A stretch of 64,000 nucleotides of DNA from Streptomyces cellostaticus (GTDB taxonomy: Bacteria > Actinomycetota > Actinomycetes > Streptomycetales > Streptomycetaceae), in assembly GCF_023630175.1 (NCBI RefSeq), contig NZ_JALLIN010000002.1, positions 1 through 64,000 of the forward strand. The letters are read 5' to 3'. Below the pieces are notes generated by a model that worked only from the letters and a program-made list of their open reading frames with translations, did not search any database and was not told where the DNA came from. Position 1 is the first letter of the stretch. Every line of letters starts with the position of its first letter. Positions 1,212-5,756 of this stretch are shown one piece after another. The translations under genes and the position numbers were made by a program.

Positions 1212-1589
1212 TCAGTCGGAGTCGCCGGCCAGCGCGGCCGCGACGGAGTCGTGGACGGTGAAGACCGCCTCGGCTCCGGTGATCTCGAACACGCGCGCCA
1301 CCACCGGGAGCATGCCCGCCAGGTGCACGCCGCCGCCGGCGGCCTCCGCCTTCAGCCGCGCCCCCAACAGCACGTTCAGCCCCGTGGAGTCGCAGAACTC
1401 AAGCCGCGAGCAGTCCACCACGAGCCGTGAGAACCCCTTGCCCAGAAGGTCGTCGAGCGGCTCGCGCAGAAGATCGGCGGTGTGGTGGTCCAGTTCACCC
1501 GCAGGTGTCACTACGGCGCTGGGACCCTCTTCCCGCACCTCCACCAGAAGCCGGCCCGACTGTGCGCTGCCGACCGTCCCGTGGTCCAT
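1212..1589 (-). CDS. STAS-domain anti-sigma factor antagonist (RsbV-like)
   Basis: This 125-residue protein is a single STAS domain. The phosphorylatable serine sits in the conserved context FCDSTGLNVL (Ser68). In this family the unphosphorylated form sequesters the HATPase anti-sigma factor and frees sigma; phosphorylation reverses this. I chose the ATG at 1587-1589 because a GGGAGAGAG site lies just upstream and the STAS fold starts shortly after; a longer open frame upstream lacks family similarity. It is divergent from the sigma gene and followed by the anti-sigma gene. From memory the S. coelicolor counterpart is ArsI of the SigI system. Confidence 0.85.
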   Translation of the reverse strand: MDHGTVGSAQSGRLLVEVREEGPSAVVTPAGELDHHTADLLREPLDDLLGKGFSRLVVDCSRLEFCDSTGLNVLLGARLKAEAAGGGVHLAGMLPVVARVFEITGAEAVFTVHDSVAAALAGDSD

Positions 1590-1838
1590 GCCGTCTCTCT
1601 CCCGAGGTCGTGGCTGCTGATGCCCTCGAACATTACGCCTTTCAATCGCACTTCGACACCCGAACAACCTCCCACAATCGGACATATCACAACAGAGCGC
1701 ACTTGCGACGTCATCGGTGATGCAGGTAGGGCTAGTAAGGACACACATCCCTACACGCCGGCTTCGGAGGCGCCGCACACCGCAAGTGCACGCTTTTTGG
1801 CTTCGGCAGCCATATGCCGAGAACGATGGAGGACACCC

Positions 1839-2732
1839 ATGTCACCCCGGCTCGACGAATCGCATACCCCGATCGCGACGTCGACACCCCTACCGGAACT
1901 GGATCATCCCATCAATCCCCTCGACGCGATCGAGGGACTCCCGGAGATCCCGCCCTTCGACGAGGTCGAACCGGTCGACGCCCGCGCGTTGTCCCGGACG
2001 CTGTTCGAGCGCCTCGAGTCGCTCGAGGAGGGGACGTCCGACTACGCGTACGTACGCAACACCCTCGTCGAGCTGAACCTCGCGCTGGTCAAGTTCGCCG
2101 CCTCCCGCTTCCGCTCCCGCAGCGAGCCGATGGAGGACATCATCCAGGTCGGCACCATCGGCCTGATCAAGGCGATCGACCGCTTCGAGCTGTCCCGCGG
2201 TGTGGAGTTCCCCACGTTCGCGATGCCGACCATCATCGGCGAGATCAAGCGCTTCTTCCGTGACACCTCGTGGTCCGTGCGGGTGCCGCGCCGGCTCCAG
2301 GAACTGCGGCTGGACCTCGCCAAGGCCGGGGACGAGCTGGCGCAGAAGCTGGACCGCGCCCCCACCGTGGCGGAGCTCGCCGAGCGGCTCGGCATCTCCA
2401 ACGACGAGGTCGTCGAGGGCATGGCCGCCTCCAACGCCTACACCGCCTCCTCCCTGGACGCCCAGCCGGAGGAGGACGACTCCGAGGGCGCGCTCGCGGA
2501 CCGCATCGGGTACGAGGACCACGGGCTCGAAGGCATCGAGTACGTCGAGTCGCTGAAGCCGCTGATCGCCGAACTCCCCTCCAGAGACCGGAAGATCCTT
2601 TCACTGCGCTTCGTCGCGGGTATGACCCAGTCGGAGATCGGCGAGGAACTGGGCATCTCCCAGATGCACGTCTCCCGGCTGCTGTCGCGGACGCTCGTGC
2701 GGCTGCGCAAGGGGCTGACCGTCGAGGAGTGA
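1839..2732 (+). CDS. sigI: RNA polymerase sigma factor, SigB/SigF family (SigI-like)
   Basis: The 297-residue protein has an acidic, proline-rich N-terminus of about 50 residues, then sigma region 2 (with EDIIQVGTIGLIKAIDRF), region 3 and region 4 with its C-terminal helix-turn-helix (SEIGEELGISQMHVSRLLSRT). The ATG has GGAGGA 6 bases upstream. It is the regulated partner of the two divergent genes. Streptomyces have about nine SigB-like sigma factors serving stress and development. The symbol rests on the locus arrangement (anti-sigma, antagonist, divergent sigma) matching my memory of S. coelicolor sigI, so it is tentative; the SigB-family assignment is firm. Confidence 0.9.
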   Translation: MSPRLDESHTPIATSTPLPELDHPINPLDAIEGLPEIPPFDEVEPVDARALSRTLFERLESLEEGTSDYAYVRNTLVELNLALVKFAASRFRSRSEPMEDIIQVGTIGLIKAIDRFELSRGVEFPTFAMPTIIGEIKRFFRDTSWSVRVPRRLQELRLDLAKAGDELAQKLDRAPTVAELAERLGISNDEVVEGMAASNAYTASSLDAQPEEDDSEGALADRIGYEDHGLEGIEYVESLKPLIAELPSRDRKILSLRFVAGMTQSEIGEELGISQMHVSRLLSRTLVRLRKGLTVEE

Positions 2733-2754
2733 TCCCTGTGGTGCCGCGCGCAAG

Positions 2755-2782
2755 GCGGCCCGGCCCGCGACGGCCGGGCCGC
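2755..2782 (+). terminator. probable terminator after the sigma factor gene
   Basis: An 11-base inverted repeat, GCGGCCCGGCC and GGCCGGGCCGC, has a 6-base loop and lies 23 bases after the sigma stop codon. There is no T-run. Confidence 0.55.
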
Positions 2783-3004
2783 TTCGCCGTTCCCGGGACG
2801 GACCACTCCGCCTGCCGGGTACCCGGCGCTCCACTCCCAAACCCGGCTCACCTGCCCGGAGCCTCGGGTCCGCGCACCGCTGCACGGTCTGAACCGTTAC
2901 CGGCGTTACCCGGGGAAACCTCTTTCCCGAACCGCGCCGCTCCACCACCATGAGCCCCCAAACCGGCTGGTACGCCGGAGAGTTCGGGGGACGGAGGGCA
3001 CGCG

Positions 3005-4558
3005 ATGGCTCAGGGCGGCGACGGGGCCGAGGCGGACACGGAACTCGCCGGGGCGCCGGACGCGCGGCTGACGGCGTTGCTGCGGGCGCCGTCCCCGACG
3101 GCCTTCCCGGCCCTCCGGGAACTGCGCCGCCGGCACCACCAGGCGGTCCTCGCCTACGCCCGGCTGTGCACCGCGGACGAGTCGGCGGCCGGCCGGCTGA
3201 CCGCGGAGACCTTCACCGCGGCGGCCCGCGAGACGGCCCGCGGCCACGAGCCGAACGTGCCCCTGCGCCACCAGCTCCTGCTGCTCACCGCCCGGTCCGC
3301 GGCCGCCTGGGCGGCCGACGAACGATCCGCGGGCGTCGACGCGGGCCTGCTGCCGGTGCTGGCCGCCGGCGGTCCCGACGGCCCGGCACCGCCGCTCCTC
3401 CCGGCGTTCCAGACGCTCCCGTCCCGCGCCCAGGGCCTGCTCTGGTACGGCGTTCTGGAAGCAGAACCCGTGGAGCGCACCGCCGCCTATCTCGGTCTGA
3501 GCCGCGTGGACGTGATCCATGACACGCCACGGGCGGTGCAGGCGCTGGCCCAGACCTGCCTGCGGCACCGCCTGGCCCGCTCGGACGACCCGCGCTGCGC
3601 CGACTTCCGGCGGCTGATCGAGGAGTCGGTACGGCCCGACGGCCCCCGCCGCAGCGCCGACCTGGAGGCACACCGGGCCCACTGCCCGCACTGCACGGCC
3701 GCCGTCGAGGAGCTGGCCGCGCTGCGGGACGCCCCGCGGCGGACCCTGGCGGAGGGCCTGCTGCCCTGGCACGGCTCGTCGTACCTCCGCGCGTCCGGCC
3801 CGGCGCCCGCGCCCGGCCCGCGTGTCGCGCTCCGGGACCGGCCGCCGGGCCGCCGCTACCTGCTGGCTTCCACGGCGCTGGGCGTGGCCCTGGCCCCGCT
3901 GCTGGTCTTCCTGCTCGCCCCGTCCGAGGCCGCCGACCGGCACGCGACGGCGGCGACGCCCGCTCCCCCGCCGGTGACGGTGACGGCGGCCGTCGCGCCG
4001 TCACCGTCCTCCACCCCGGCGCCCTCGCGCACCACCGGGTCGCCGTCACCGCCGCCGTCACCGTCGCCGTCGCCGAGCGGGACCGCGCACCGCCCGGCCA
4101 CCTCACCGCCACCGAGCCCCGGCGCCCCGCCCGCGTCCCCGGCGCCCGCGCCACCGGGCGGCGCCTTCGCCCAGGTGGTGAACCTGGCCACGGGCCGCTG
4201 CCTGGACATCCGGGACGGCGAGCTGTGGAAGGGCAACGATGTCGTCATGGCGCCCTGCGACTCCTCCGCCACCCAGCGCTGGCGGGTCGAAGCGGAGCCG
4301 GGCGTGCTGCGCTCCGCCGCCGACTCCGACTACTGCCTGGACAGCCGCGGCTCGACCGACCGGGGCGTGGGCATATGGGAGTGCGGCTCGGTCCGCGGAC
4401 GCAACGGCCGCAACCTCCGTTTCGAGGTGGACCCCGACGGCACGATCCGCCCGGCGATCGACACGGGCACGGCGGTGACCCCGTACGGCGGCGACGGGGT
4501 CGTGCTGCGGCCGCTGACCGGGGAGCCGGCGCAGCGGTGGCGGGCCGGGGCCGTCTGA
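3005..4558 (+). CDS. membrane protein: ECF-sigma-like N-terminus, zinc anti-sigma-like motif, TM helix, ricin-B lectin domain
   Basis: This 517-residue protein has four parts. Residues 20-190 resemble ECF sigma regions 2 and 4: a helical stretch with RRRHHQAVLAYARLC, then LPSRAQGLLWYGVLE followed by an HTH-like AAYLGLSRVDVI. Residues 223-230 hold His223-x3-Cys227-x2-Cys230, the zinc anti-sigma signature. One membrane helix spans about 284-304. A Pro/Ser/Thr linker (about 310-385) leads to a ricin-B lectin domain (about 386-515) with LATGRCLDI and QRW motifs. The expected topology puts the sigma-like part inside and the lectin outside. It follows the SigB-type gene in the same direction. ATG with ACGGAGGGC upstream. 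Whether the N-terminus binds RNA polymerase is unknown. Confidence 0.85.
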   Translation: MAQGGDGAEADTELAGAPDARLTALLRAPSPTAFPALRELRRRHHQAVLAYARLCTADESAAGRLTAETFTAAARETARGHEPNVPLRHQLLLLTARSAAAWAADERSAGVDAGLLPVLAAGGPDGPAPPLLPAFQTLPSRAQGLLWYGVLEAEPVERTAAYLGLSRVDVIHDTPRAVQALAQTCLRHRLARSDDPRCADFRRLIEESVRPDGPRRSADLEAHRAHCPHCTAAVEELAALRDAPRRTLAEGLLPWHGSSYLRASGPAPAPGPRVALRDRPPGRRYLLASTALGVALAPLLVFLLAPSEAADRHATAATPAPPPVTVTAAVAPSPSSTPAPSRTTGSPSPPPSPSPSPSGTAHRPATSPPPSPGAPPASPAPAPPGGAFAQVVNLATGRCLDIRDGELWKGNDVVMAPCDSSATQRWRVEAEPGVLRSAADSDYCLDSRGSTDRGVGIWECGSVRGRNGRNLRFEVDPDGTIRPAIDTGTAVTPYGGDGVVLRPLTGEPAQRWRAGAV

Positions 4559-4580
4559 CCGGCCGGCGCGGCCGCCCTGG

Positions 4581-5756
4581 TCAGATCTCGCGCACGCCGC
4601 GCCGCCAGACACCGGCGACCAGCGGTACGCCCGGCCGGTAGGCCAGGTGCACATGGCTCGGGGCGTCGAGCAGCAGCAGGTCGGCGCGGGCGCCCGGGGC
4701 GAGGCGGCCGATGTCCGTGCGGCGCAGGGCCGCCGCGCCGCCGGCCGTGGCCGACCAGACCGCCTCGTCCGGCGTCATCCCCATGTCCCGCACCGCGAGC
4801 GCGACGCAGAAGGGGACCGAGGAGGTGAACGACGAGCCCGGGTTGCAGTCCGTGGACAGGGCCACGGTGACGCCCGCGTCCAGCAGTCGCCGGGCGTCGG
4901 GCCATTCGGCGCGGGTGGAGAACTCGGCGCCGGGCAGCAGGGTGGCGACCGTGTCGCTGTGGGCGAGGGCGTCGACGTCCGCGTCGGTGAGGTGGGTGCA
5001 GTGGTCGGCGCTGGCCGCGTCCAGCTCGACGGCGAGCTGGACGCCGGGTCCGTAGGAGAGCTGGTTGGCGTGGATCCGGGGGTGCAGGCCCCTGTCCCGG
5101 CCGGCGGTGAGGATCGCGCGGGCCTGGTCGCCGTCGAAGGCGCCCTTCTCGCAGAAGACGTCGATCCACCGGGCGTGCGGGGCGCAGGCGTCCATCATCT
5201 CGCCGGTGACCAGGGCCACGTAGGCGGCCGGGTCGTCGGCGTGCTCGGGCGGGACGATGTGGGCGCCGAGGAACGTCACCTCGTCGGTGTGCCGGGCCGC
5301 GGCCCGCAGGGCGCGGGCCTCGTCCTCGACGGTGAGGCCGTAGCCCGACTTCGTCTCGAAGGTGGTGGTGCCCTGGCGGAGGGCCTCGGTGAGGTAGCGG
5401 GTGAGGTTCGCCTCCAGCTCCGCGTCGGTGGCGGCGCGGGTGGCCGCGACCGTGGTGCGGATGCCGCCCGCGGTGTAGGAGCGGCCGGACATCCGGGCGT
5501 TGAACTCCTGGGTGCGGTCACCGGCGAAGACCAGGTGGGAGTGGGAGTCCACGAAGCCCGGCAGCGCCGCCCGGCCGCCCGCGTCGACCCGGTTGTCAGT
5601 GGCGGGTGCTTTCCTGGATTCACCGGTCCACACGACGCGGTCGCCGTCGATGACGACGGCCGCGTCCTGGATCAGGCCGAGGGGGGATCCGTCACCGAGG
5701 GAGGGGTCATTGGTGACCAGCGCGGCGATGTTGGTGATGACGGTGCTGCTGCTCAT
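4581..5756 (-). CDS. hutI: imidazolonepropionase
   Basis: The enzyme opens the imidazolone ring of 4-imidazolone-5-propionate to N-formimino-L-glutamate, the third step of histidine catabolism. The 391-residue protein shows the amidohydrolase metal motif [10 protein letters not shown] near residue 70, a later metal-ligand segment (IHANQLSYG), the ADHCTHL segment and [11 protein letters not shown]. Length fits the family. The ATG (5754-5756) has a GGAGGACACC-type site upstream. It is the last gene of the leftward hut run, 38 bases after hutF, so it should be co-transcribed. Confidence 0.93.

Follow-up and report, generated by a model that had tools for sequence, protein, structure and literature searches.

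The closest described systems belong to the ECF52 group of sigma factors. In SCO4117 of Streptomyces coelicolor, a sigma part, a zinc finger, a membrane region, a proline-rich extension and a carbohydrate-binding domain are described within one polypeptide, and knockout of the gene is reported to affect development and antibiotics (PMC5826349). The published ECF52 model invokes a sugar-binding module, followed by proteolysis or a conformational change by which the sigma part is freed (PMC5826349, PMC8999054). A review states that proteolytic activation is expected for ECF48, ECF52 and ECF53; it describes ECF48 and ECF53 as sigma factors fused to zinc anti-sigma and membrane parts, and names WP_030276194.1 as the ECF53 representative (PMC8999054). 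For some members of ECF52 and ECF53, glycosyl hydrolase or carbohydrate-binding domains have been predicted (PMC10766802). ECF52-type proteins are currently treated as self-restrained sigma factors.

Three further systems share individual features with the protein considered here. Class I zinc anti-sigma (ZAS) factors are defined by an Hx3Cx2C signature (PMC7406223). These domains, as in RsrA, ChrR and RslA, mostly form a separate protein, whereas the ZAS domain described below has the same signature and follows its own sigma-like domain within one polypeptide. IutY (ECF243) of Pseudomonas putida answers the siderophore aerobactin and is an active sigma factor for which no lectin is described, unlike the protein studied here. 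PhyR, as far as it is described, is a response regulator, which our protein is not; its sigma-like fold binds an anti-sigma factor and thus sets a precedent for sigma factor mimicry. To our knowledge, PhyR lacks a ZAS domain, a membrane helix and a lectin.

We analysed the first 64,000 nucleotides of contig NZ_JALLIN010000002.1 of Streptomyces cellostaticus (the window), in which a single open frame runs from the ATG at 3005 to the TGA ending at 4558 and encodes 517 amino acids. The preliminary description of this DNA had proposed that one polypeptide joins a sigma-like part, a zinc motif, a membrane helix and a lectin, and this frame bears the proposal out. The layout behind the sigma part (zinc finger, membrane region, proline-rich extension, carbohydrate domain) is that of ECF52; the similar layouts of ECF53 and ECF48 were compared by description only, and ECF53 may already include part of the clade to which this protein belongs. 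The features of the locus are as follows.

1482..2732, plus strand: open frame of a SigB-type sigma factor, the neighbour of the focal gene (PF08281 match at 2562-2705); its true start is probably further in
2993..2998, plus strand: GGAGGG, a ribosome-binding-like sequence 6 nt 5' of the focal ATG
3005..4558, plus strand: focal coding sequence with sigma-like part, ZAS domain, membrane helix, Pro-rich stalk and ricin-B lectin (30 orthologous open frames)
3053..3331, plus strand: predicted sigma region 2 fold, residues 17-109 (AlphaFold2, VIA-align)
3374..3580, plus strand: predicted sigma region 4 fold, residues 124-192 (AlphaFold2, VIA-align)
3506..3547, plus strand: equivalent of the -35 recognition helix, residues 168-181, with basic residues lost (alignment and net charge)
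3581..3760, plus strand: ZAS domain, about residues 193-252, with C198, H223, C227 and C230 (weak antisigmaE, RsrA and zf-HC2 matches in some orthologues)
3860..3916, plus strand: membrane helix, residues 286-304 (hydropathy)
3920..4159, plus strand: Pro/Ser/Thr-rich stalk, residues 306-385 (composition; poorly conserved)
4169..4540, plus strand: ricin-type beta-trefoil lectin, residues 389-512 (Pfam; CBM13 structures in Foldseek), with four invariant cysteines (399, 418, 444, 460)

The orthologue set consists of 30 open frames, of which contig ends truncate three; together with the focal protein they make 31 sequences, and domain-model scans with Pfam and NCBIfam covered 28 family members. 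A chance open frame is rejected by these orthologues and by dN/dS values that are mostly below 1. Pfam matches to Mago-bind, CDtoxinA, INV_N and similar models were also rejected, as each occurs in only one or two of the 28 members at E 0.033 or worse. In Streptomyces sp. SW4 (locus L031, 6001-7528) the N-terminal part has a broken frame, which may be a sequencing error.

The outer half of the protein is readily recognised. Ricin_B_lectin matches residues 389-512 with 61.9 bits against a cut-off of 29 (E 8.8e-17) and is found in all 28 members scanned, and CBM13 structures are among the first Foldseek rows, including row 1, for the full-length model. A single strong hydrophobic peak is present in 30 of the 31 sequences, the exception (L029) running off its contig, and the 20 residues before the helix carry a charge of +4. 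Because of this N-side charge and the sole strong peak, the positive-inside rule would place the sigma part in the cytoplasm and the lectin outside, which agrees with the one membrane helix and outer ricin-B domain of the preliminary description.

The ZAS assignment is carried by its zinc ligands. The motif H223-x3-C227-x2-C230 is exactly as had been claimed, and far from being lost in orthologues it is invariant in all 31 sequences, together with a fourth ligand, C198 (C198-x24-H223), which was absent from the earlier account. The Hx3Cx2C signature of class I ZAS factors is thus accompanied throughout by an upstream fourth ligand, at a spacing found in RsrA-type domains. Domain models respond weakly: zf-HC2 (Pfam) matches two of 28 orthologues (best E 0.33) and an NCBIfam anti-sigma family matches 14 of 28 (best E 0.002).

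The sigma-like part, in contrast to that of ECF52, has no sigma domain recognisable by region 2 or region 4 models. A Pfam scan of the focal protein gives no sigma domain match. Among the 28 orthologues the Pfam region 4 model matches none and Sigma70_r2 one (E 0.19), while the best NCBIfam sigma match, to the SigE family, reaches E 0.00093 (two of 28 match); for the focal protein itself this family gives E 0.023 and 14.6 bits against a cut-off of 141.55 bits. No member of the clade reaches the cut-off of any sigma model used (Pfam, NCBIfam and a region-4 model), and the 78 region-4 places detected in its genome (E <= 0.01; 150 of 250 candidates scored) do not include the focal gene. Since the clade stays under these standard cut-offs, surveys of sigma factors likely miss it.

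Homology to sigma factors becomes visible through ECF52-type proteins. A profile of residues 1-268 (30 rows) matches a fused protein of the same genome that has a clear sigma domain (L071/L037) with 61.1 bits (E 2.5e-16), and relatives beyond the genus with up to 76.9 bits (L076 at E 5.7e-21, others down to 3e-10). Sigma70_r2 is detected in two ECF52-type relatives at E 3.2e-12 (the fused protein of the same genome) and 6.1e-14, and when the focal protein is aligned with ECF52-type sequences the motifs stay in register, starting at the first sigma helix and continuing past the ZAS motif into a conserved segment. Among the sequences of solved structures, the residue 1-268 profile recovers no sigma factor, its two matches at E 1.7 being to gastric intrinsic factor, whereas one ECF52-type protein used as query does find SigE and BldN. 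The sigma assignment therefore rests on the ECF52-type bridge and on the fold.

The N-terminal part is predicted to have sigma-2 and sigma-4 folds. AlphaFold2 was run on residues 1-274 with a shallow alignment of 30 rows; the best model has a pLDDT of 84.8 and a pTM of 0.79, and the other four range in pLDDT from 75.8 to 55.1. In Foldseek, rows 1-17 for this model are sigma factors, with unrelated proteins lower down, and no match reaches E <= 0.001. VIA-align superimposes region 2 on that of E. coli sigmaE (4lup) over 86 residues at 1.6 A with Z 11.8, and region 4 on several structures with Z 6.3-7.4 (3hug, SigL4, Z 7.4; 5fgm, SigR4, Z 6.6; 2h27, sigmaE4 on -35 DNA, Z 6.3), although in helical folds a Z below about 13 can mean a shared arrangement only. 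Nearly all of the 50 VIA-align matches listed are sigma factors or PhyR, chains of which are thus among the fold matches of the N-terminal model. A first full-length model was poor (pLDDT 57.8), and its Foldseek list consists mostly of lectins, with BldN at rank 46 and SigW at rank 50. The sigma-2/4-like helices proposed earlier for residues 1-200 are recovered by structure prediction, with ECF sigma factors as the best solved matches.

The modelled arrangement of the two sigma domains hints at a closed, inhibited state, although the evidence is weak. Over both domains, Foldseek fits anti-sigma-bound sigma factors at 10.5-16.1 A, a free SigG1 crystal at about 16 A, and sigma factors solved within RNA polymerase at 24.3-29.5 A. 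Of the two-domain matches listed, a chain from the SigE-ChrR complex (2z2s; 123 residues, 5.2 A) lies closest.

The sigma-like part keeps its shape, yet seems to have lost the usual contacts with promoter and polymerase. We compared net charges in 14 hand-picked canonical ECF sigma factors, 11 ECF52-type proteins, seven other fused paralogues and 40 rows of the focal clade. Over the 14 residues of the recognition helix these range from +2 to +5, +1 to +2, -1 to +2 and -3 to 0, respectively. A control within the same genome used the final 16 residues of each region-4 match at the best 30 of the 78 region-4 places, a choice that favours canonical proteins, and gave +1 to +5 in 29 of the 30 fetched loci, the 30th match stopping short. 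In a 16-residue slice the focal rows span -3 to +1, so that their maximum touches the lowest of the 29 genome matches at +1. The charge loss is local to the recognition helix: averaged over the whole sigma domain, net charge is +2.5 in focal proteins and +2.1 in canonical ECFs. Ranked by charge among the windows of its own domain, the helix reaches percentile 91 in canonical ECFs, 72 in ECF52-type proteins and 22 in focal ones.

Individual residues follow the same pattern. E. coli RpoE contacts -35 DNA through R171, S172, R173, F175 and R176, and in alignment its region 4 numbering happens to coincide with that of the focal protein. These residues align to I171, H172, D173, P175 and R176. Site 173 is occupied by G, D or E and site 172 by Y or H throughout the 40 focal rows; Arg is present in six rows at site 171 and in six at site 176, the focal protein of the window being one that keeps it at 176. 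In region 2.2 the Asp of canonical and ECF52-type rows is replaced among the 31 sequences by Arg (21), Gln (9) or Leu (1), turning D-led motifs such as DLTQE and DLTAE into RLAAE- or QLAAQ-like ones, and the mean net charge of region 2.3-2.4 falls from +4.29 to +1.70 (range -1 to 3). The focal clade hence presents neither the basic -35 recognition helix nor the acidic region 2.2 expected of an active ECF sigma factor.

These proteins form a clade of their own beside ECF52. A maximum-likelihood tree built from 33 chosen rows unites 11 focal sequences with seven relatives (L034, L075, L036/L089, L035/L081 and L088) in one group (support 100/99, stem 0.77) beside fused sigma-positive proteins, and this group joins the SCO4117-like rows with support 89/73. 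The frame of L075 ends soon after the ZAS part. All but one of the 32 loci found are from Streptomyces, the remaining one matching the lectin only. Of 150 Streptomyces genomes, 39 carry an orthologue scoring at least 388 bits and six more a match of 195-232 bits; in a class-wide sample of 197 genomes, the six with an orthologue belong to this one genus, and other genera give at most 72.5 bits.

A whole-protein search of the S. cellostaticus genome returns five fused sigma/ZAS proteins, namely the focal protein and L034, L035, L036 and L037, the membrane helices of the latter four having been judged by eye. Their outer ends differ: ricin-B in the focal protein and in L034, which is 34% identical to it, CBM2 in L036, NPCBM in L037 and no domain recognised by Pfam in L035. 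The N-terminal profile recovers four of the five and misses L035. L037 has the SCO4117 layout and, of the five, is the only one that the region-4 model detects (78 places, with 150 of 250 candidates scored); from its architecture we take it as the putative SCO4117 orthologue. The focal protein thus differs from this SCO4117-like protein of its own genome in carrying ricin-B in place of NPCBM, and from ECF52 in its separate position in the tree and its lost sigma contacts.

The focal frames are intact and under purifying selection over most of the protein. In eight sequence pairs, which overlap by sharing sequences, dN/dS is 0.19-0.49 for sigma-2, 0.21-0.35 for the ZAS domain, 0.25-0.98 for sigma-4 (the highest value reached in one pair), 0.28-0.82 for the stalk and 0.36-1.27 for the lectin; the recognition helix gives a noisy 0.09-2.18 and, at 14 codons, is too short to judge. 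These values bear on the view that the protein is a membrane-anchored lectin whose sigma/ZAS part is merely a structural anchor or relic and does not signal. The loss of the usual sigma contacts and the presence of the lectin in 28 of 28 members would suit such a protein. However, the zinc ligands are kept in 31 of 31 sequences, and in pairs that share sequences dN/dS lies below that of the stalk in seven of eight for sigma-2 and likewise for ZAS, and below that of the lectin in six of eight for sigma-2 and in all eight for ZAS. We consider a relic improbable.

The neighbourhood raises a different possibility. Upstream of the focal gene lie the SigB-type gene and two divergent genes, read from the sequence as encoding STAS-type and HATPase-type proteins; downstream are a convergent open frame ending at 4581 and genes read by eye as histidine-use genes. 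The SigB-type gene adjoins the focal gene in 29 of 31 loci, the window with its partner-switching locus noted earlier among them. In L014 (S. viridochromogenes DSM 40736) neither side of the focal gene carries it, and the focal gene lies away from the SigB-type/hut neighbourhood; in L029 (S. indiaensis) it is missing from the 6 kb upstream, and the contig stops on the downstream side. The arrangement matches what is described for S. coelicolor, where prsI and arsI diverge from a monocistronic sigI whose product is a SigB-type sigma factor with its own anti-sigma and anti-anti-sigma factors (PMC8346170). The focal protein might accordingly regulate the neighbouring SigI-type partner switch, passing an outside glycan signal to this stress sigma factor, as the conserved neighbours in 29 of 31 loci would suggest. 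Against this, SigI is described with regulators of its own and sigI as monocistronic (PMC8346170), and next to the focal gene no such neighbour was detected in L014 or L029. Since sigI is monocistronic and the neighbour is absent at two of 31 loci, adjacency argues weakly for a common pathway, and we regard a role in the SigI switch as very improbable, more so than a relic.

The focal gene is probably its own transcription unit, separate from the SigI-type neighbour, since the locus resembles that of the monocistronic sigI, the neighbour is absent at some loci and a hairpin intervenes. This GC-rich hairpin (2755-2782) lies between the SigB-type and focal genes; inspection of 21 aligned upstream regions by eye shows it in 12, with a few mismatches. 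It has no T run, and a scan for promoters and terminators over 2600-4700, which includes the hairpin, made no call. A partly conserved block at 2960-2978, with a consensus near AACTGGCCGGTAnGTCAG, lies 27-45 nt 5' of the start codon in the aligned upstream regions. With up to three mismatches it has three matches in the window against 0.45 expected. An operator regulon for this block was rejected, as a shorter pattern occurs genome-wide at 18 places, against 28 in a reversed control.

Computation supports the domain order, the sigma fold, the zinc ligands, the membrane helix, common descent with ECF52-type fusions and purifying selection over most of the protein. We think it about an even chance that the protein is a glycan-gated membrane receptor, based on a sigma/anti-sigma fusion of ECF52 type, whose cytoplasmic sigma fold acts by protein contacts, as in sigma mimicry, rather than by reading promoters. 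A glycan-gated receptor is the natural reading because of the layout and the published ECF52 model, and action by protein contacts is preferred because the sigma-like part has lost its usual contacts with promoters and polymerase. In such a receptor, the stalked ricin-B lectin would bind a glycan outside while the ZAS domain would be held against its own sigma-like domain inside. Glycan binding or proteolysis might then open this clasp, and the exposed sigma-like or ZAS part might contact another sigma or anti-sigma factor.

Counted against this explanation are the Arg kept at 176 in the focal protein and the net charge of region 2.3-2.4, which is still positive, as well as the touching charge ranges, the noisy dN/dS of the helix, the sigma-4 value of 0.98 in one pair, the differing AlphaFold2 models with their shallow alignment, the weak Foldseek E values and the lack of a sigma factor match among solved sequences. 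Almost as likely is an active sigma factor of an unusual kind. It would be a working, diverged member of the ECF52 kind in which a glycan triggers membrane proteolysis, the ZAS part is removed and the freed sigma part directs polymerase to unusual promoters. Its case draws on the architecture shared with SCO4117 and the knockout phenotype described for that gene (PMC5826349), on the proteolytic activation expected for ECF48, ECF52 and ECF53 (PMC8999054), and on the predicted sigma fold with its conserved ZAS motif. Some divergence is compatible with a working sigma factor because the ECF52-type helix is itself weakly basic (+1 to +2). However, the loss of the basic -35 helix and of the region 2.2 Asp, and the failure to reach the cut-off of any sigma model, speak against activity. 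The self-restrained, membrane-tethered sigma factor of the preliminary description thus stands as regards the predicted fold, the fused ZAS motif and the membrane helix, while on the same grounds its part as a working sigma factor is doubtful. Residues 168-181 are the one stretch that separates the two readings.

The architecture is already known from ECF52, for which sugar-triggered release has also been proposed, and the kind is not new. What we have not seen in the literature searched is a Streptomyces clade beside ECF52 with a sigma fold lacking the usual contacts and with exchanged lectin modules. Our literature search returned no paper combining an ECF sigma factor, a ricin B lectin, a zinc finger and a membrane part; among the papers listed, judged by titles and the opening lines of abstracts, none beyond the ECF52/53 work concerns a ricin-B or degenerate member. 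SCO3069, a possible S. coelicolor orthologue of the focal gene, is not mentioned among the literature matches listed.

If the protein-contact reading is true, part of the fused ECF52-like repertoire would not be sigma factors at all and would form a membrane counterpart of PhyR-type mimicry. We tentatively suggest, at somewhat less than even confidence, that Streptomyces has glycan receptors with a pseudo-sigma domain, in which the fold and the zinc clasp are kept and promoters go unread. A glycan would free the sigma-like or zinc part to capture a partner sigma or anti-sigma factor, and the exchanged outer modules (ricin-B, CBM2 or none recognised) would yield different receptors within one genome.
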